Part shown: in pieces, positions 13,809-23,825 of the stretch
How the letters are laid out: every line of letters starts with the position of its first letter
Numbering within the stretch: position 1 is the first letter of the stretch
From: a virus
DNA: 31,953 nucleotides
Reading direction: 5' to 3' (one strand)
IMG/VR virus record: IMGVR_UViG_3300032677_000114
Coordinates: 1 to 31,953 of that record
Translations under genes and position numbers: made by a program
The notes under the pieces: generated by a model
Database searches by the model: none
Told to the model about the DNA's origin: nothing
What the model saw: only the letters and a program-made list of their open reading frames with translations

Positions 13809-15500
13809 ATGCCTACACTTTTACCAAACGGCAAACAGCAGTTTTTTGACGGAAATGGCCAGCCCCTTGCGGCTGGTCTTGTTTATTTCTATATTCCGAA
13901 TACCAATACTTTGAAAAATACTTGGCAAGACCCGTCTGGGGTAACGCTGAATAGTAACCCTGTTCAGCTAGACTCAAATGGTGAGGCGATTATTTACGGC
14001 TCAGGATCGTATCGGCAGATTTTGAAGGACTCACTTGGCAACACCATTTGGGATCAGTTGACTGCGGATACTTCCAGTCTTGGTGATAGCTGGGCGGGCA
14101 ATTCTAGTGGTTCGGCAAATTTGCAGACAATTAGTGCCCCAAGTTTTTCATCTCAGGCCGGTCAAAAAATTTGGTTTATTACAGAGTTTACTAACACTGG
14201 GCCAACTTCTCTTGTGGTTAGCAATTTGCCTCCGATCCCGATTATCAAGTCTACTCCGCTTGGCCCTGTGCCTCTTACTGGCGGAGAACTGGTTACAGGT
14301 GATTTGGTAGGTGTAGCATATGACATAAATACCAGTGCATTTCAGTTGATTAATCCTGCTCCGCAGAGCAATACGACTTTTACTATTGTGTCGGCAGCAA
14401 CGACAGACATTGGTTCTGGAAGTAGCAATGTGGTTAGTATTACTGGCACAACTACGATTACTTCCCTTGGTACATCTGCTGATGCTTGGAACCCGATTTT
14501 TTATGTGACATTTACCGGCGCATTGGTGCTGACGTATAATGCCATTAGTTTAATTTTGCCAAGTGGGGCAAGTATTACAACTGCAGCAGGTGACTCAGCA
14601 ACATTTCAGTATCTTGGGGCAGGAAATTGGAAATGCTTGGCTTATACCCCTGCAAACGGATTGCCTATTGTATCATCAAACGTAGGAGATTTTAGAAACA
14701 GATTTATCAATCCGACTTTTTTGGTAGATCAGCGAAATAAAGGCGCTTCACAGACGATTACAGCAGGAACTCCAGCATATACCGTAGATCGGTGGCTTGC
14801 TTCTTGCTCAGGCGCAAACGTAACAGGGCAAAGGACTGCTTACGGATTTTATCAATTTACCGGTGCAGCAAGTGTTACAGCTATAGGTTTTGCTCAAAGA
14901 ATTGAAGCCGTAAATTCGTACGATATGGCAGGTAAAACTTGCACATTGTCGGCGTATATTGCAAATTCAGTTTTGACAACTGTAACTTGGACTGCATATT
15001 ATGCTACTACAACAGATAACTTTTCCGCACTTACCCAAATTGCTACTGGAACATTTACTGTAAGTGCAACATCGACAAGGTATTCAGCTTCATTTGCTGT
15101 GCCTTTGGCAGCTACTACTGGAATACAAATTAGTTTTTCAGTTGGAGCGCAGACAAGTGGAACTTGGGTTATTTCAAATCCGCAATTTGAAATAGGAGCT
15201 GCTGCTTCTGCATTTGAGCAACGGCCTATTCAGTATGAATTGCCACAATGCCAAAGATATTATGAAGTTTTGCAAAATATTATCAATATTCCTCAAAATC
15301 AAGTATCAGGCAATTATTTTTACACTGGAGTAACTTGGGCATATAAAGCTACTAAACGCATAACACCTACTGTAACGCTTGCAAGTGGGTCAATAGGTAC
15401 TGTTAATCAATCGGGTGTGGACAGCGTTACTATATGGGCAAATCCAAACGTATCAGGTACGATTGTAAATCCAAACTCAACTGCCAGTTCAGAACTTTAG
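13809..15500 (+). CDS. Tail fibre / receptor-binding protein
   Basis: 563 residues from the ATG at 13809, chosen because ACGGAG precedes it and MPTLLPNGKQQFFDGNGQPL is the standard opening of a large family of phage fibre proteins; an open extension to 13710 lies inside the upstream gene. The N-terminal module (LAAGLVYFYIPNTNTLKNTW, DSNGEAIIYGSGSYRQIL) is the virion-binding part. A repetitive Ser/Thr/Gly beta region follows. From about 300 a second module with NRFINPTFLVDQRNKGASQT and TVDRWLAS, then FEQRPIQYELPQCQRYYE, is a carbohydrate-binding-like fibre end seen in other phages. It should determine host range. Confidence 0.85.
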   Translation: MPTLLPNGKQQFFDGNGQPLAAGLVYFYIPNTNTLKNTWQDPSGVTLNSNPVQLDSNGEAIIYGSGSYRQILKDSLGNTIWDQLTADTSSLGDSWAGNSSGSANLQTISAPSFSSQAGQKIWFITEFTNTGPTSLVVSNLPPIPIIKSTPLGPVPLTGGELVTGDLVGVAYDINTSAFQLINPAPQSNTTFTIVSAATTDIGSGSSNVVSITGTTTITSLGTSADAWNPIFYVTFTGALVLTYNAISLILPSGASITTAAGDSATFQYLGAGNWKCLAYTPANGLPIVSSNVGDFRNRFINPTFLVDQRNKGASQTITAGTPAYTVDRWLASCSGANVTGQRTAYGFYQFTGAASVTAIGFAQRIEAVNSYDMAGKTCTLSAYIANSVLTTVTWTAYYATTTDNFSALTQIATGTFTVSATSTRYSASFAVPLAATTGIQISFSVGAQTSGTWVISNPQFEIGAAASAFEQRPIQYELPQCQRYYEVLQNIINIPQNQVSGNYFYTGVTWAYKATKRITPTVTLASGSIGTVNQSGVDSVTIWANPNVSGTIVNPNSTASSEL

Positions 15501-15509
15501 GAGGACTAA

Positions 15510-15686
15510 ATGATTTATGTATCTGCTGTTTGGGGAAATGCCGAACATACTCTTATTACAGCAACAATGGCAAATGGAACATTAAGTTTTATTCCAGTTG
15601 AGCCGTTAAATGTTGATTATCAAAATTTTGAAAAACAAGGGCTCACAATCGGCCCTTATGTTGACCCATTTGCTATAGGAGCCTAA
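15510..15686 (+). CDS. Small protein, 58 aa, fibre-adjacent
   Basis: A short gene with a very strong ribosome binding site (TAGGAGGA at 15498-15505, partly inside the fibre stop). The protein begins MIYVSAVWGNAEHTLITATM and ends VDPFAIGA, with no membrane segment. It is packed between fibre and endolysin with one base to the next ATG. Small genes of this kind after fibres can be fibre partners or lysis-linked; I do not recognise the family. Confidence 0.75.
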   Translation: MIYVSAVWGNAEHTLITATMANGTLSFIPVEPLNVDYQNFEKQGLTIGPYVDPFAIGA

Positions 15687-15687
15687 A

Positions 15688-16206
15688 ATGCAACAAAATT
15701 GGGATTTGGCTCTAAGCGAGACTCTTAAGATCGAAGGGGGTTATGTGAATGATCCCCAAGACTCGGGCGGCCCTACGGACAAAGGAATTACGCAGCGAGT
15801 GTTTGATGCGTATAGGGCAACTCAACATCAGCCGGAAGAATGGATCAAGCGAATTACTCCGGCAGAGGTTAGCAATATTTATAAAATTCAGTATGCTCAG
15901 GCGATAAAGTTTGATGAGATTCCTAGCGGGCTGGATTACACTCTTTTTGATGAGGCGGTTAATTCTGGGCCTCATCAAGCCATTGTAACCTTGCAGGAAG
16001 TTCTTGGTGTCAAGGTGGATGGTAAACTTGGTGTCATGACTATGGAAGCGCTCCTAAAGGCGGATAAAGGCAAGATTATTAAAGCTTATGCAACCAATCG
16101 CCTAGGTTTTCTTTCTCGTCTAAGGTCGTTTAAGAGGTTTGGCAAAGGCTGGACAAAACGTGTGAGAGCCGTTGAAGCTCTTAGTTTGAAATTAAATGGA
16201 GGTTAA
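15688..16206 (+). CDS. Endolysin, GH108-type muramidase
   Basis: 172 residues. The N-terminus carries the GH108 signature: KIEGGYVNDPQDSGGPTDKG with E16 of EGGY as catalytic residue, followed by GIT. SGLDYTLFDEAVNSGPHQAI and a C-terminal region (LGVKVDGKLGVMTMEAL, RLRSFKRFGKGWTKRV) match the family's peptidoglycan-binding end. It cuts the glycan strands at the end of infection. There is no signal peptide, so release depends on the holin encoded next. The ATG follows the previous stop by one base with AGGAG upstream. Confidence 0.9.
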   Translation: MQQNWDLALSETLKIEGGYVNDPQDSGGPTDKGITQRVFDAYRATQHQPEEWIKRITPAEVSNIYKIQYAQAIKFDEIPSGLDYTLFDEAVNSGPHQAIVTLQEVLGVKVDGKLGVMTMEALLKADKGKIIKAYATNRLGFLSRLRSFKRFGKGWTKRVRAVEALSLKLNGG

Positions 16207-17020: not shown

Positions 17021-17367
17021 TATTTATCTTCCTCTATTAAATCTTCTTTCAGTCTATCAATAGGACTTAGCTCTTCCAAGCCGATTGTGAATGGAAAACG
17101 ACTTAAAGTCATATCCATTTCGCATGAAGGCTGGTGAAAGCTAAGTCCTTTTTTTATGCCCTGAAAGGTCATTGGAAGTTCACAATAAGCACAATGACCT
17201 TTGAGTTCCAGCATCTTGACTTTAGAGTCATGAAAATCTACAAAATTGGCATAGAAGGTGTAGGAACCGTGGGGACAGGCGGCGGAAGCCGTAGGTCTAC
17301 TCGAGGCCGTGAGAGTTTTTGGGGCGAGGAGTGTAGGTTTGGGTTCCTGCCATTCTACTGATGACAT
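17020..17367 (-). CDS. Small zinc-ribbon protein, 115 aa
   Basis: Starting at the ATG at 17367 (MSSVEWQEPK), the protein has a Pro/Thr/Ser-rich lead, then CPHGSYTFYANFVDFHDSKV and LKGHCAYCELPMTFQG, giving zinc ligands C31, H33, C59 and C62. This C-x-H...C-x2-C arrangement with the FVDxHDxKVKMLEL segment is one I know from other phage genomes as an uncharacterised family. Its first 71 bases overlap the ATPase gene in another frame, and the ribosome binding site is weak, so the exact start is uncertain. It is the last gene of the leftward block. Confidence 0.75.
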   Translation of the reverse strand: MSSVEWQEPKPTLLAPKTLTASSRPTASAACPHGSYTFYANFVDFHDSKVKMLELKGHCAYCELPMTFQGIKKGLSFHQPSCEMDMTLSRFPFTIGLEELSPIDRLKEDLIEEDK

Positions 17368-18943
17368 TGGATCGTTCAGCAATTTCGATGACTCTATGGA
17401 TTTTTTCACTTGGAACTCGCTGGGAAAGAAAGTTGATGATACGAGACTCGTGTACAGGCTTTTTATCCTTAACCCAAATCTGCCACATAAAGAAGTGCAT
17501 TTCTTGAATAACTTGACCATCGGACTTGGATACCATTTCCTTAAAGATGTCTGGCATGGTGGCCTCGGCTGCTAAAAGCCAGTCCTTGGCCCGAGTCAGG
17601 TCGAGAAGGGTGATGCGAAGCTTAGGACTTCGGCTCATCGCAGAGATCATACAAAGCTTAAGGATGTGAAGAATACGTCTGCCGTTATAGTGGGTTAGCT
17701 TGGAGTGCTCGGGCACAGGATCACATCCGCCCAGATACCAACGTTCGATTTCTTTGGCTGCATCTTCATCCCATTGGAAAGCCCCGACCCTTTCGCTCAT
17801 TGCCCCTAAGCTTTCCGCTAGAGCCTTAAATTCCTCCTGCCTGTTCTCGCCCTTGCCGAAAAGCGGCACATGCTTACCGGTGCCGGAATAGACCATGATG
17901 AGCCGTGAGGTGGTGCCCATTGACCAAGCTTCCTCAGGCAAGGTAGCAGCCAAATATCCAGGCTGAGTAGCCGCAAGGATAACTAGCTGCGGATTGCAAA
18001 TGTCTATTGACCTAGCCATGGTGCGGCGTTCTTCTCGATATGACTTAGGATTGTCATATACATAGTTGAGAACGGAGAGGAACTCTAGGTCATGGCTAGG
18101 GACTAGCACCCCGAACTCAGATGCGGCGATGAGCATAGTGTGGTATTCAATCAGGCTTTTGTCTGGAGCCAAAAGTTTCCTGTCTGCCTTCATCAAGGAG
18201 TCGATGAGGCTGGCCTTGGTGACGTTGTTGGGAGCGACATGAAACTTTTGGGCATTAGCATACCAGAGTTGCTCAACCGGATTGATGGCCTGTGTATTAT
18301 GAATTACGGTAAAGTCATCCAGCAAAAATTGACGATCTTGGTCAACTTCAATTCCCCACCAGCGGCCTTGTGAAGCCAGTGAAATATTAAAGCCTACATT
18401 TGTAACGTCTTTTCTTTTAGGCAGCGAGAGTGCAAAATCTTTTACCCCAACTCTCCAAAGTTTCCACTCAGCTTTTTTCGTATTTGACCATTTAAGCCAA
18501 TTCAAGACTGTGACTGTGCAAATTTCTCCTCGGTTAGGATTTTTGCTCTTGCGTAAGGAGAGGATATGCTCTCCATTGCAAAGCCATGATCTGCCTTTGG
18601 TCGGAGTTACCTTATAGAGTTGACCTTCACCTGGAGCTGTGGCAATGACTGTACGAGATTTACCATCTGGGCCGATCAGCAAATCTCCGACTTTGACGGT
18701 TTCAATAGGCACAGCTTTACCGTCATAGGTAAGCACATGCTCTCCGTAAGCAAGGCACTTACCCACAGCTGGCGGGGCTACTAAGAGAGTGAAAAGATTG
18801 GGAAAAAGCACACTTCTACTTGTTTCTACCCATACCCGCCTTTCAAGGGCTCCACTTATTGCGGTGATGCCACTCCAGAGCCGAAAAATGTCTGGAGACG
18901 GAACTCCGTCTGTGTATTTCATAAATGAGTCAATCCAGTCCAC
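17297..18943 (-). CDS. P-loop helicase/primase-type ATPase interrupted by a mini-intein
   Basis: 548 codons, of which residues 63-216 are an intein; the spliced protein would be 394 residues. The N-extein (DWIDSFMKYTDGVPSPDIFRLW, split; LERRVW; SVLFPNLFTLLV) and C-extein (FHVAPNNVTKASLIDSL, LIAASEFGVLVPSHDLEFLS, LVILAATQPGYLAATLPEEAW) match a phage replication ATPase family related to DUF3987 helicase/primase proteins. Joining the exteins restores the Walker A motif APPAVGK-T, so the unspliced protein should be inactive. It lies downstream of the polymerase gene, fitting replication. The exact helicase activity is not proven. Confidence 0.82.
   Translation of the reverse strand: MDWIDSFMKYTDGVPSPDIFRLWSGITAISGALERRVWVETSRSVLFPNLFTLLVAPPAVGKCLAYGEHVLTYDGKAVPIETVKVGDLLIGPDGKSRTVIATAPGEGQLYKVTPTKGRSWLCNGEHILSLRKSKNPNRGEICTVTVLNWLKWSNTKKAEWKLWRVGVKDFALSLPKRKDVTNVGFNISLASQGRWWGIEVDQDRQFLLDDFTVIHNTQAINPVEQLWYANAQKFHVAPNNVTKASLIDSLMKADRKLLAPDKSLIEYHTMLIAASEFGVLVPSHDLEFLSVLNYVYDNPKSYREERRTMARSIDICNPQLVILAATQPGYLAATLPEEAWSMGTTSRLIMVYSGTGKHVPLFGKGENRQEEFKALAESLGAMSERVGAFQWDEDAAKEIERWYLGGCDPVPEHSKLTHYNGRRILHILKLCMISAMSRSPKLRITLLDLTRAKDWLLAAEATMPDIFKEMVSKSDGQVIQEMHFFMWQIWVKDKKPVHESRIINFLSQRVPSEKIHRVIEIAERSNVISRMAGTQTYTPRPKNSHGLE
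18296..18757 (-). other. Mini-intein, 154 aa, in Walker A motif
   Basis: It begins with Cys (CLAYGEHVLTYDGKAVPIET, block A) and continues with VKVGDLLIGPDGKSRTV; block B reads WLCNGEHILSL; block F WWGIEVDQDRQFLLDDFTV; block G VIHN. The terminal His-Asn is followed by Thr as the +1 extein nucleophile. All residues for class 1 protein splicing are present (Cys1, block B His, penultimate His, Asn154, +1 Thr). There is no room for, or trace of, a LAGLIDADG or HNH homing endonuclease. The insertion lies between Lys and Thr of GK-T. Confidence 0.95.
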
Positions 18944-18957
18944 AGGAGTATTCTTTC

Positions 18958-20433
18958 TTAAAGAATGCGGTTGAGGGAGGTAGTGCGCTTGCGCTCATCC
19001 TTGCCCTTGTATTTCATTAAGCCTTCGGGATTGGCTGGGCTATAATTGCCCCAATTCCAGCCAACTTTTGCTTCACCTGGCACTATCAAGGTTCGGCCAT
19101 TGTGGTGAAGTGGAGTCTCGATTAAGCTTAATGCTTTGGAAATAATCCATCCTTCATCCTCCTCTTTGTATTGGAAATAAACTGCGTCATGGACTTGGGC
19201 AGTCAAACGGATCGAGTCCCCTAAGGTATGCCAGATACGCCACAGGGCCAAGTTAAGCCGGTCTCCGGTAGCGCTCTGCGGTGCATAGGCAATGGCCTCG
19301 CGAAGCGTGGTGTCATCGTTTGGTCGCCCAAAGAAGTGGCGAGTACGGCCAAAAACTGTTGTAACCTTTTGAGAGACTTGAAGTTGCTCTGCAACCCAGC
19401 GGTGATACTTCGGTATGCCCTGAAAAGCTTTAAAATAGTTCCGTTGAAAATTCTCCGCAATATAGGTTTCGATCTTAGCATGGCGAGCCATGGTAGGGGG
19501 CAAGCCTCTATAGTTTGACCCGTGGCCTAGCTTTTTGGCCATATCACGATATGAGTACTCACGATAGAATACCGAGTCTGCAATGGCTCGATCCTCCTTT
19601 TTATCTCCTGTCCATTTTAACTCAGGCCAAGCATACTTGCAAACCAAAGTATGCAAGTCTCCAGCGTAACAGGCGTCAAGATAAGTCCAATCATCGAAAA
19701 GAACTCCACAAAGCCAGCCGACCTCACGGCTTTCTGCTTGCTCAAGGTCGATGCCGCAGAGTTTCCAGCCAGGATCGGCGATAAAGATATTGCGAAGCTT
19801 TGGGGCGATGTTTTGCAGATTGGTGCCGGTGCCGGTGGAACTAGAACTTGAACTCCACCTAGCAGTTTCGGTGCCTGCGATGTTGTAACTTGTACGCATC
19901 CTGCCGTCATAATCTACCTCGGTCTGTAGGACACTGAGCTGCTTGCCAATGTCTCGGATTGCGAGAATGGTTCGGATGATAGGACGGGCTATAAAGTAGA
20001 GTTCTAGGGTTTCAAGAGCTTCACGGTCGGTGGAAAGTTTGCGTACCCCTTTTTTGCTCGTCCAGACCTCAGGAAGCTTCATGGCCTCGTAGAAGAATTT
20101 TATAAGTTGGGTGGGGGAGCGTGGATTGAGGGGTTTGCCCCAGACTGCAACTGCAAACTCATCCAGCACCTCTTGGAGAAAAAGGATTTTCTCCTCACAC
20201 TCCTTGATGGAGTTCTGCGCCGAGATCTTGTCTATAAGAAAACCTCTTTGCATCATTTCCAAAGCAGGGGCTTGGAGAGCAAGAGCGAAATTATAGACTT
20301 GGGGATTGACCGGATGGAGGGATTTAAGTTCCCTGAGAACTTCCAGGGTAATGCAGCAATCTAAACCGTTATAGACTTGGTGAGACTCATCTTTGGTCGC
20401 AGGGGCATAAGTCGAGGTTTTAATTACCGGCAT
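18958..20433 (-). CDS. DNA polymerase I family, polymerase part (split gene, second half)
   Basis: 491 residues. It begins at the end of the exonuclease domain: Exo III is YNGLD (Y21, D25). The polymerase domain has motif A GIDLEQAESREVGW (D229), motif B RDMAKKLGHGSNYRG (R296, K300, Y308) and motif C QVHDAVYF (H415, D416; Ala replaces the usual Glu after Asp). There is thus no complete proofreading domain in this chain: Exo I and II are in the gene at 21005-22045. AGAGG upstream of the ATG and a 14-base overlap with the preceding gene indicate separate translation. The first 16 residues (MPVIKTSTYAPATKDE) look unlike a family N-terminus. Confidence 0.9.
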   Translation of the reverse strand: MPVIKTSTYAPATKDESHQVYNGLDCCITLEVLRELKSLHPVNPQVYNFALALQAPALEMMQRGFLIDKISAQNSIKECEEKILFLQEVLDEFAVAVWGKPLNPRSPTQLIKFFYEAMKLPEVWTSKKGVRKLSTDREALETLELYFIARPIIRTILAIRDIGKQLSVLQTEVDYDGRMRTSYNIAGTETARWSSSSSSTGTGTNLQNIAPKLRNIFIADPGWKLCGIDLEQAESREVGWLCGVLFDDWTYLDACYAGDLHTLVCKYAWPELKWTGDKKEDRAIADSVFYREYSYRDMAKKLGHGSNYRGLPPTMARHAKIETYIAENFQRNYFKAFQGIPKYHRWVAEQLQVSQKVTTVFGRTRHFFGRPNDDTTLREAIAYAPQSATGDRLNLALWRIWHTLGDSIRLTAQVHDAVYFQYKEEDEGWIISKALSLIETPLHHNGRTLIVPGEAKVGWNWGNYSPANPEGLMKYKGKDERKRTTSLNRIL

Positions 20434-20830
20434 TTTGGCCTCTTTTTGCAGCTTGAAAAGTTTTTAGATATTTGCGAAACTCAGTTAAATTTGCCACCTT
20501 GATAATGTCGGGGTGGTGCTGCCAAGTTCCGAAGTCCTTATGGTTTCCGATCAGGACAACTGGAAGTCCCAGACATAGGGCATAGCCAACTTCAACCAAA
20601 GCCCCTCTAAGCTGATCATTTTCATGAGCGTAAACTGCAACTAAATCTGCACTTTCAATATCTTCAAAATCCTCAACCCAAAACTCGCGGGCATTGGCTG
20701 GAGTTTCCTGAGTTTTATTTGCCCAATGTTTAATCCACCTCGCATGGATATAAATTTCCTTCCACCTATCGTGAAGGTCAAGCCAAAACCAGCCCAGTGG
20801 GATTTTGGAAGCAGGGTAAACTCGTAACAT
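20420..20830 (-). CDS. Nucleoside 2-deoxyribosyltransferase-like protein
   Basis: 136 residues from the ATG at 20830, which has a strong AGGAG site; the open frame further upstream is not needed. Family features are MLRVYPASKI (first strand), WIKHWANK, DIESADLVAVYAHENDQLRG (D-x-x-x-x-AD) and GALVEVGYALCLGLPVVLIG, with the Glu of VEVG in the place of the catalytic Glu. These enzymes move or remove bases from deoxynucleosides; some relatives in phages are nucleotide-pool enzymes and the fold is close to TIR. It sits between the two halves of the DNA polymerase. Confidence 0.8.
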   Translation of the reverse strand: MLRVYPASKIPLGWFWLDLHDRWKEIYIHARWIKHWANKTQETPANAREFWVEDFEDIESADLVAVYAHENDQLRGALVEVGYALCLGLPVVLIGNHKDFGTWQHHPDIIKVANLTEFRKYLKTFQAAKRGQNAGN

Positions 20831-21004
20831 GGTATCTCCTAGGACGATCAGAATATGAGATAAAGGAAAGGAAAGCAAGGCCATAATTTGACACACATTT
20901 GAGGCGTGGCGGCAAAGTATGGGAAGGGATAGGCAATCATACATGGGATAAAAGATGCCCGCCCATGACCTTCTAATGGCCTTGGTGGAACTAGGACTAA
21001 AATC
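20831..21004 (-). other. Non-coding, probably structured leader inside the split polymerase locus
   Basis: 174 bases between the stop of the glycosylase/exonuclease gene and the ATG of the deoxyribosyltransferase-like gene. CAAGGCCAT (20876-20884) and ATGGCCTTG (20976-20984) form a perfect 9-bp stem around 91 bases, which contain a second repeat CATGGG/CCCATG (20942-20947, 20962-20967). Just after the upstream stop, - strand TAGGAT-TTTA-GTCCTA can fold into a hairpin. GTCCTAG recurs next to the AGGAG site of the downstream gene. I could not recognise a riboswitch or a complete group I intron core. Confidence 0.5.
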
Positions 21005-22045
21005 CTATTCATCCTTCTTGAGCGTGGTTTTGCGATAAGTGTTCTTCCATGACGACTCGTTGGTGTAGATGGAGCCAAGGAAGCCAAGACCTTTTTGCAA
21101 CTCTGGGTAAAGGGCATGGTGAAGCAGCATAGTGTCCTCAGTGCAATTTTGAATTTTAAGGCCCATTCGGAGGATGTACTGGAGATCATAGAGGCCGTTC
21201 TGGAATACCTTGGGGATAGGAGAGCTTAAAAGGGTTTCGACGAAATTCCAAGCATCAAGCTCAAGGTCAGGGGTAGGCCAATAGGATTTGCCGGAGTAAT
21301 CTACAAAGGGAATTACCATGGCTTTTGTGGGGCTGGAAGCAAAACCGATGCAAGTGATTTGGCCTAGGCGAGTTTCAATGTCCACACCGAGGTATAATGC
21401 TGAGGAATTTTCTTGCCACCATTCGAGCATTTCCTCAAAGCTGGGGCTAATGAGGATTTCCCTTTCCGGTCTGCGGATTTCAGGAAAATGACGCTCCCTT
21501 TCCGCTTTCATCAAATCCGTTATCACGATTACTCGAAGTGCCCAGTTACGCATAACTGCGGCTGGGTTATAGGTGGGAAGGACTTTGAGGTCATCGACTA
21601 GGGTAGAGTAGGCTACGGTGCCTCGAAGGGAGCCGATGCCGCTGGAATTGAGGAGTGCCCAGCAAGCCGTATTGCCTAAGGCCAAGGTAAGGTTAGGCTT
21701 TACGATCTGGAGTTCTTGCTGGAGTCTTGCAACTTCGCCCAAGAGTTCTGGCTTGATATACTTGCCCATGCCGTAAGGCGGCATTGGGTAGCCAAGGCCA
21801 GCTTCCTTCTTATTGACACAGATTTTCTCAATATCTCCTTGCGGAGGTTTAAAGTTAAAAACACTGGTTAAAAAGCACTCACTTCTCGAGATCCCCGCCT
21901 CGGCTAACATACGGGTAAGTTCTTGGCCGGAACTGCCCATGAAAGGCAGCTTGGTCATTTCTTCCTGATCTCCCCATGCTTCGCCGACTATGGCGATCCG
22001 AGCATTTCGCGGGCCGTTAGTGGAGTAGAAGGGAGCTGAGGTCAT
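21005..22045 (-). CDS. Uracil-DNA glycosylase domain fused to 3'-5' exonuclease half (split DNA polymerase, first half)
   Basis: 346 residues. Residues 15-180 are a family 4-like UDG domain: VGEAWGDQEE (21-29), PFMGSSGQELTRML (34-47), LGNTACWALL (123-132), YNPAAVMRN (159-167). The N-terminal Cys pair for the Fe-S cluster is absent and the usual HPA is NPA, so glycosylase activity may be altered or lost. Residues 217-346 begin a DnaQ-like exonuclease: Exo I GVDIETR (D222, E224), Exo II FQNGLYDLQYILRM (N283, D287), then EDTMLLHH and GFLGSIYTNESSWK. It stops with KKDE before Exo III. SPO1-like and many phage polymerases have this UDG-exo-pol order in one chain. Starts in an ATGA overlap. Confidence 0.88.
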   Translation of the reverse strand: MTSAPFYSTNGPRNARIAIVGEAWGDQEEMTKLPFMGSSGQELTRMLAEAGISRSECFLTSVFNFKPPQGDIEKICVNKKEAGLGYPMPPYGMGKYIKPELLGEVARLQQELQIVKPNLTLALGNTACWALLNSSGIGSLRGTVAYSTLVDDLKVLPTYNPAAVMRNWALRVIVITDLMKAERERHFPEIRRPEREILISPSFEEMLEWWQENSSALYLGVDIETRLGQITCIGFASSPTKAMVIPFVDYSGKSYWPTPDLELDAWNFVETLLSSPIPKVFQNGLYDLQYILRMGLKIQNCTEDTMLLHHALYPELQKGLGFLGSIYTNESSWKNTYRKTTLKKDE

Positions 22046-22431
22046 TCTGAGCGTTCACTTTGGTTAAGGTCAAAAAGATCAGGTAGCTTAATTTGGGTCT
22101 CCCTTTCTTCCAGCATACACTTGAAAAGTAAGAGATAGACGATGATGTCATCGCAGCGAGAAGCTAGGGTTTCCAGTCGCTTAATGCCGGTGATCCCTGC
22201 CCGCATATCTTGCTCGTATTGCATGAGGGCGTCCCAGTGCTTGGCGGCATATATTCTCCAGATGGTTTCCATGGGAAGGCCGGTGGCATTAGCATGGCGG
22301 CGGAAATTGCCCAGCCGATCACCAGTTCCGGCATATTCACGGCCTTTAAGTTCACCCAAAGCTTTGAGTTGGGTAATGGTGTCTTTGACGATCTCATTGT
22401 AACGCTTGATAGGAAAATGTGGCTTGGTCAT
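22042..22431 (-). CDS. Conserved phage hypothetical protein, 129 aa
   Basis: Mostly helical, with the pattern LKGREYAGTGDRLGNFRRHA, then WRIYAAKHWDALMQYEQDMR and RCDDIIVYLLLFKCMLEER. The aKHWDal and R-x-DDiivYllLfk motifs recur in other phage replication regions as I know them, and recall MazG-like or nucleotide-modification-associated helical proteins, but I cannot place it firmly. It overlaps both neighbours by four bases (ATGA), between the ParB-methyltransferase and the glycosylase/polymerase gene, hinting at nucleotide or genome metabolism. Confidence 0.72.
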   Translation of the reverse strand: MTKPHFPIKRYNEIVKDTITQLKALGELKGREYAGTGDRLGNFRRHANATGLPMETIWRIYAAKHWDALMQYEQDMRAGITGIKRLETLASRCDDIIVYLLLFKCMLEERETQIKLPDLFDLNQSERSE

Positions 22432-23825
22432 TTTGAAAGTCTCCGGAGGGCTTGTGCTTGTTTAAAACTTCTTAAGGCATTAGTGTAGTGTTCAGGGGAA
22501 ATTTCTAAGCCAAGAACTTGCTTTGCGCCTAGTTGATCTGCGGCATGAAGGGCGTTGCCGCTGCCACATGTTGGGTCAAGCATCCGTGTGTTTTCGTCCA
22601 CGAACATAGACATGAAAGACTTGAGCATCGCAATGTTTTTGGCAGAATTATGATTGGTTTTGTCGGTAGGGGCAGAGTAGGAATTGGAGACCGATCTGAG
22701 AATGTAGCGATCTTCGCGACTGGCGATAAGACAAGTTTCGTATATTCGGCGTGGCCCACGCTTGGGATCAGGCAAGATGCCAACATTGTCACTCTTAGTC
22801 CAGATAAGAGGGAATTTTTGAACTTGAAGGCTTGGTGCATGGGTAGCAAAGAACTCGAGAGTTTCATGATAGTGCTCCATTGAAAACCAGAACATAAGAT
22901 GAGCCGATGGGCTCATTAGCTTGTCTAAGTTTTTGCATAGGCAACCGAGGAGAGTCCAATAGACATCTGGGGAGTCGGAATACTGCTCCCAACGCTGGCT
23001 GCCACTCATCTTTCCTGCGTTATAGTTGACTCCATAGGGGAAATCGCAATGGATGAAATTGAAGGGCTGGCCAGTGTAAGCTTCTGTCCACTCAAGAAAA
23101 TTCACGTTCAAGATTGGGTCTGGAGAAGGCTCGGTTGGGGACGAAGCTGCGGCACGGGCTGGGGCATAGGTGTCTTTGGCGGGCTTTGGAGAGCCTTCGG
23201 TCTGATCCTCACTTTCCGGTGCCTCATTTCCTTCTTCTCGCTTTGGTGGGTCGCTAAGTTCATCCCCAAAAGTAACTGTGGCATTGATGATGTCGCTGAG
23301 GGCATCTCCGGTAGCCCGTTGGTCAACTCGACTAAGGATATTGTAAGCAACTCGATAGGAAGTAGCTTCGCTGATCCGAGGATTGTCGATGTCGCGAGCA
23401 ACTCGCAAAATGGAACTAAGAAGTCCTGTGCCGAGGCCGAGGGCATCAGCGGTCTTGCTTTGACTCCAATCCGGCTGGAGGGAGTAGAGATCATGAATGG
23501 CGGAATAGGCTGTTACAAGGTCACGCCAATCAAGGTCGCTGCGTTTGACGTTTTCCTCTAACTCAATAATTTGGGCTTCGATAGGATCGAGGTCCTCGAG
23601 ATACCGGCATGGAATGTCGAAAAGGCCAGCGGCTTTGGAAGCCTCAAACCTACGTTCACCAGCCACTAGCACGTTGTCTTTGGTGATGATAATAGGGTTC
23701 AGGACTCCTCGCTTAGAAACCGAGTCCACAAGGTTGCTCACGTCGATTACTTTTCGCTGACGTTCCTCCCTCAACACCTTGATCTCGGTGAGGGGTATGC
23801 GTTGAAATTCTTGCTGGCTAGCCAT
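22428..23825 (-). CDS. ParB-domain / DNA methyltransferase fusion
   Basis: 465 residues. Residues about 8-170 are ParB/Srx-like: IPLTEIKVLREERQRK, GVLNPIIITKDNVLVAGERRFEA (split; GERR 56-59), a helix-turn-helix region around 115-145 (WSQSKTADALGLGTGLLSSIL). Residues 190-236 are an acidic then Ala/Pro/Ser linker. Residues 237-465 are an amino-methyltransferase in beta order: motif IV CDFPYG (260-264; a DPPY variant) precedes motif I DPTCGSGNAL (417-426), with GLEIS (439-443) as motif II. It probably methylates adenine N6 or cytosine N4 in phage DNA. Four- and one-base overlaps tie it to its neighbours. Confidence 0.88.
   Translation of the reverse strand: MASQQEFQRIPLTEIKVLREERQRKVIDVSNLVDSVSKRGVLNPIIITKDNVLVAGERRFEASKAAGLFDIPCRYLEDLDPIEAQIIELEENVKRSDLDWRDLVTAYSAIHDLYSLQPDWSQSKTADALGLGTGLLSSILRVARDIDNPRISEATSYRVAYNILSRVDQRATGDALSDIINATVTFGDELSDPPKREEGNEAPESEDQTEGSPKPAKDTYAPARAAASSPTEPSPDPILNVNFLEWTEAYTGQPFNFIHCDFPYGVNYNAGKMSGSQRWEQYSDSPDVYWTLLGCLCKNLDKLMSPSAHLMFWFSMEHYHETLEFFATHAPSLQVQKFPLIWTKSDNVGILPDPKRGPRRIYETCLIASREDRYILRSVSNSYSAPTDKTNHNSAKNIAMLKSFMSMFVDENTRMLDPTCGSGNALHAADQLGAKQVLGLEISPEHYTNALRSFKQAQALRRLSK

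Follow-up and report, generated by a model that had tools for sequence, protein, structure and literature searches.

A mini-intein splitting Walker A in a phage replication-type ATPase very probably lost its endonuclease recently through one clean deletion

The boundary between the lysine and the threonine of the P-loop has been called a "classic" intein site (PMC5050341), and mini-inteins are thought to come from endonuclease loss after fixation, within the homing cycle (PMC8966425, PMC1654191). The intein analyzed here comes from a virus of bacteria and lies in a 31,953-nt stretch of DNA (IMG/VR record IMGVR_UViG_3300032677_000114), which we call the window. Like the mycobacteriophage TerL1-a inteins, it sits between the invariant Lys and Thr of a phage ATPase P-loop, with the difference that the TerL1-a host is the terminase large subunit (PMC5050341). 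Its nearest solved folds are the Cryptococcus Prp8 mini-inteins (6mx6 and 6mwy, 35% identity), which are also natural mini forms in a family with endonuclease-containing (HEN+) members and also carry a Cys ahead of block B. They differ in that they reside in a fungal spliceosome protein, have TxxH rather than NxxH in block B, and are 171 residues long. The PI-SceI (Sce VMA1) intein shares the Hom_end_hint family and the NxxH of block B, but it comprises 454 residues with an endonuclease. The VMA-a site that it occupies precedes the P-loop site by about 20 residues (PMC8966425). The inteins of JD001, Bas95, VSt10, Touem01, Vibrio 1.009, and 13VV501A belong to the same subfamily as ours, with NxxH and the K/T Walker A site (here and below, a slash within a motif marks the insertion point). 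That of 13VV501A is likewise endonuclease-free (147 residues), whereas the other five are full-length (332–351 residues), and all six hosts are helicases by annotation or resemblance, not DUF3987 ATPases. Overall, the window locus belongs to an already known kind, a mini-intein formed by endonuclease loss at a P-loop. What is useful here is how recent and clean that loss appears to have been.

The host gene (17297–18943, minus strand, GTG start) encodes a 548-residue precursor of a DUF3987-type phage ATPase, which comprises 394 residues without the intein. The N-extein (residues 1–62; 18758–18943, minus strand) ends in ...LVAPPAVGK, that is, Walker A through its Lys. The C-extein (residues 217–548; 17297–18295, minus strand, stop codon included) starts with TQAINPVEQ..., and its first Thr is both the +1 nucleophile and the Walker A Thr. 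The Pfam family PF13148 (DUF3987) matches the extein flanks with 36.3 bits against a cut-off of 27, and in PHROGs the protein resembles phrog_14296, "DNA primase" (E 5.5e-36). The adjoining upstream gene encodes a family A DNA polymerase (18958–20433, minus strand; Pfam and PHROGs), which places the ATPase in a replication context; the polymerase likewise stands beside the ATPase in a relative, Caulobacter phage Kuura. From the phrog_14296 annotation and the adjoining polymerase, the host is predicted to be a replication ATPase or primase-helicase, in line with the initial annotation of a mini-intein splitting the Walker A motif of such a protein. The polymerase itself is split in the window: the family A polymerase is separate from a UDG-like protein with a 3'-5' exonuclease (21005–22045, minus strand), the two pieces matching separate portions of phrog_17, and a nucleoside deoxyribosyltransferase-like gene (20420–20944, minus strand) sits between them. 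Farther along, a gene at 22428–23825 (minus strand) fuses a ParB N-terminal domain to an N6/N4 DNA methylase.

The mini-intein itself (CLAYGEH...DFTVIHN; 154 residues, precursor residues 63–216; 18296–18757, minus strand) splits PPAVGK/TQA exactly at the Lys/Thr boundary, as had been described, and the splicing domain read there from the letters proved complete. It has the class 1 nucleophile Cys1 in block A, N61-G-E-H64 in block B (within the class 1 pattern [T/N]xxH), and His153-Asn154 in block G, followed by the +1 Thr (VIHN/T). Hom_end_hint (PF05203) matches it with E 9e-17 (62.3 bits against a gathering score of 32.1). PF14890 (Intein_splicing) gave no match in the window record, because the intein matches PF05203 instead; a hit to NCBIfam intein_Nterm fell far under the cut-off and was discarded. 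By sequence, the nearest proteins in the PDB are again the Cryptococcus Prp8 mini-inteins (E 5.5e-14 over the full 1–154). An AlphaFold2 model built from an input alignment of 35 sequences (pLDDT 92.1, pTM 0.85) shows a HINT fold from end to end, with residues 1–154 aligning to the Prp8 intein. That intein is also the best structural match (VIA Z 22.7, 1.3 Å over 140 residues), and PI-SceI comes next. The Asn in place of the common Thr of block B is no defect, since NxxH is the rule in the subfamily (113 of the 116 inteins listed below) and also occurs in PI-SceI (PMC6805012). By these motifs and matches, we assign the window intein to class 1 (Cys1, His-Asn, +1 Thr) and to a phage P-loop branch among the VMA/Prp8-like (Hom_end_hint) inteins. 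In other respects its function in the cell would be that of an ordinary intein.

A search for relatives in IMG/VR returned three contigs. The first, L001 (3300020711_000042), is the same mini form, with one mismatch to the window over 8674 bp, outside the gene. The second, L002 (IMGVR_UViG_3300013093_003179), carries an ATPase gene 99% identical to that of the window, with a length of 2214 bp against 1647 bp. Gene, site, and splicing domain (99% identical) are shared, whereas the L002 intein has an additional 189-residue LAGLIDADG endonuclease part, giving 343 residues. Both LAGLIDADG motifs, FLGILLGDGDS and ILAGLIDSDGSY, are intact, and Pfam finds Hom_end (3.5e-10) as well as LAGLIDADG_3. By contrast, the Pfam scan of the window ORF found neither Hom_end nor the LAGLIDADG families, so that the endonuclease domain of a homing intein, stated earlier to be missing here, is absent from the window ORF and present in its 99%-identical counterpart. 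The third contig, L003 (54% identical), is intein-free with a plain PPAVGKS. The allele sample is small, with a single HEN+ contig; the two HEN- contigs, L001 and the window, are almost identical and may originate from one site.

Between the window gene and that of L002 we counted 21 substitutions outside a single in-frame gap of 567 bp (189 codons). The gap has one single set of best breakpoints. The corresponding scar in the window, where the 567 bp with the L002 endonuclease are missing, lies at 18431–18434 (minus strand), the junction falling anywhere in these four positions owing to a 3-bp GCA microhomology. At a random breakpoint, a microhomology of 3 bp would arise with a probability of 8%, and it does not prove any mechanism. 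The scar coincides with the sole low-confidence loop of the AlphaFold2 model (intein residues 109–114). We also considered whether the 567 bp had simply been dropped in assembly, as only metagenomic contigs stand behind both alleles. Nevertheless, an assembler would not collapse a repeat of just 3 bp, and the identical junction is present in L001 as well as in the window, both IMG/VR records, which makes an artefact exceedingly improbable. Divergence between the window and L002 is about 1%, except for two sharp peaks of 25.8% (around 15454–15704) and 6.4% (around 22204–22454); these suggest local recombination between the two viruses.

The alignment of the window with L002 by itself gives no direction. 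The general view is that inteins were invaded by endonucleases at some point, and the mini form might be ancestral, L002 having gained its endonuclease by insertion. The relatives speak otherwise. The L002 endonuclease aligns, at the same position, with those of the JD001, Bas95, Vibrio 1.009, VSt10, and Touem01 inteins. Two further records, 3300045781_000130 (L015/L017) and 3300006641_000048 (L018/L221), have full-length inteins in the same ATPase at the same site; they are the two next-nearest inteins there. The window and L002 pair as sisters in the ATPase tree, and the full-length L015 comes next (support 98). Since this extein sister is full-length and the L002 enzyme is homologous to and co-positioned with those of the relatives, the mini form reads as derived by a recent deletion. 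The endonuclease of L002 is also about as diverged from its relatives as the splicing domain is: amino acid identities to L017 and L018 are 57 and 52% for the endonuclease and 69 and 60% for the splicing domain, dS being saturated in these comparisons and endonuclease dN/dS uninformative, so that amino acid identity was used. Mini forms are, moreover, scattered over the intein tree (see below). Gain of the endonuclease is already strongly disfavored, and we consider it highly improbable. Very probably, then, the window copy lost its endonuclease domain recently through one clean 567-bp deletion. The HEN+ twin keeps both motifs intact, which argues against a long decay before the loss, at least in the lineage of L002.

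The full explanation that we favor, with a probability of about 0.9, is as follows. The ancestor would have occupied the same Walker A site as a full-length intein of the homing type. One in-frame 567-bp deletion across a 3-bp repeat would then have removed its LAGLIDADG domain while sparing the entire splicing domain. By excising itself, the remaining mini-intein would turn the precursor with its interrupted Walker A into a normal 394-residue ATPase. The mini allele would no longer be able to home; it should also be protected from the HEN+ endonuclease, provided that the L002 enzyme is active, because the target site is still interrupted.

Splicing in this explanation draws on the substitution pattern of the exteins. 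Between the window and L002 the exteins differ by 17 changes, 16 synonymous and one replacement (dN 0.001, dS 0.063), against 12.4 replacements expected among 17 random extein changes; some of these substitutions may antedate the deletion, and extein constraint gives no date for it. Judging from this pattern, the ATPase is under strong purifying selection. With Walker A broken by the intein, the ATPase could work only after splicing, and the pattern suggests a functional ATPase and hence splicing. The spliced protein has its Walker A restored (PPAVGKT), in keeping with the GK[ST] of most homologues, and until splicing the intein probably blocks ATP binding, leaving the precursor inactive. Removal of the endonuclease can harm splicing in some inteins (PMC8966425), and this precedent of artificial deletions would fit a dying allele, one that lost splicing with the deletion in a virus that copes with an inactive ATPase. 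Such an allele is very unlikely given that all catalytic splicing residues are kept, that the high-confidence AlphaFold2 model shows a complete splicing domain, that the extein is almost free of replacement changes (1 of 17), and that natural minis of the same size occur in seven other phage proteins. Continued self-excision after the deletion remains our preferred reading.

Querying IMG/VR with five aligned ATPases gave 69 loci. The resulting ATPase tree has 68 members including phage Kuura, of which 64 are intein-free and four carry an intein, in the mini form once and in the full-length form three times. Once spliced, the protein (394 residues) can be aligned over its whole length, junction included, with L003, Kuura, and about 60 more homologues that lack the intein and have the same length. 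In several DUF3987 relatives of the alignment, Walker A lacks its Ser/Thr (GKF, GKD, GKN, GKG, or GKH), suggesting altered or lost nucleotide binding in these proteins. An empty-site allele of the window virus was not found in IMG/VR with a wobble-degenerate pattern, and a DNA-level search of phage records gave no match. A scan of genome contigs confirmed no ATPase relative and hence supplied no prophage copies. A search of the literature consulted for inteins together with DUF3987 found no paper.

With 64 of 68 relatives intein-free, the ATPase family does not require the intein, which is not fixed there but sporadic. The initial annotation had taken the element to be either fixed or kept for control of replication. 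Neither option found support: a 99%-identical virus has the HEN+ form, and we found no sign of control. A mini-intein kept as a post-translational switch, delaying the replication ATPase through redox, metal, or ssDNA sensing, would fit the interruption of Walker A itself. Other helicase inteins are described as responding to stress (PMC6195587), and Cys60 of the window intein, beside block B, corresponds in the alignment to Cys61 of the Cne Prp8 intein, which is stress-responsive. Yet nothing in the window sequence demands regulation and the intein is missing from most relatives. In Prp8, copper inhibition does not stem from Cys61, and C1 and C61 lie too far apart to form a disulfide (PMC6805012), a precedent that leaves control by a Cys1–Cys60 disulfide unsupported. 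Regulation of splicing is a minor possibility, and we regard a switch as unlikely. The observation made from the letters is confirmed, while its interpretation is partly supported.

Globally, the window intein belongs to a larger branch, for which we collected 116 distinct inteins (the best 80 of each of two alignment-based scans, plus phage records); since loci were chosen for the presence of two conserved peptides and then ordered by score, the proportions given here are no census. Among these 116 listed inteins all but one are inserted in Walker A, 80 at GK/x and 35 at G/xGK; Cys1 is present in 115, the block B His in 116, and the block B Asn in 113. A Cys ahead of block B (position 60) occurs in 29 of the 80 GK/x inteins and in none of the 35 G/xGK inteins. 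A Pfam scan of ten branch hosts turned up, among others, DUF3987, SF2 helicases, Terminase_3, and DnaB. On a quick tree of 153 columns the insertion site of the listed inteins switches 4 times, against 30 in shuffles, so that intein lineages hold the exact site while switching proteins. By these comparisons, this is a Walker-A-specialized phage intein branch that spans unrelated P-loop families. In Vibrio phage 13VV501A, the helicase (L005:2953–5463) apparently has two small inteins in one protein, one of 147 residues in Walker A (GK/T) and a second-looking one in the DEAH box (DE/C...VVVHN/CHH).

Lengths among the 116 listed inteins are bimodal: 8 are mini forms (146–158 residues) and 108 are full-length (318–360 residues), with none between. 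Intermediates are likewise absent among the fungal Prp8 inteins (PMC1508164). The mini forms of the listed set require 7 changes on the tree, at least 4 of them forced by well-supported branches. The 7 other mini forms lie at Walker A sites of other phage proteins, and the endonuclease-free P-loop intein of the window is accordingly less special than had been supposed. A second fairly recent pair is formed by L101 (mini) and L082 (full-length), with about 88% DNA identity downstream of the gap, in the C-terminal part; the position of the endonuclease deletion in L101 almost coincides with that in the window. Taken together, the 7 changes, the lack of intermediates, and this pair indicate that endonuclease loss recurs in the branch and seems to proceed in a single step.

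More tentatively, and at somewhat less than even odds, the branch may repeatedly lose an intact-looking endonuclease by one clean excision while HEN+ forms still circulate in near-identical viruses. The stage of slow decay would then be skipped, and HEN- alleles would act as cutting-resistant competitors within one phage population. The window and L001 on one side and L002 on the other form a near-isogenic natural HEN-/HEN+ pair, separated by one 567-bp indel with a visible scar and accompanied by intein-free homologues. With such a pair one can test directly whether one-step loss of an intact endonuclease leaves splicing unharmed, and how HEN+ and HEN- alleles compete.
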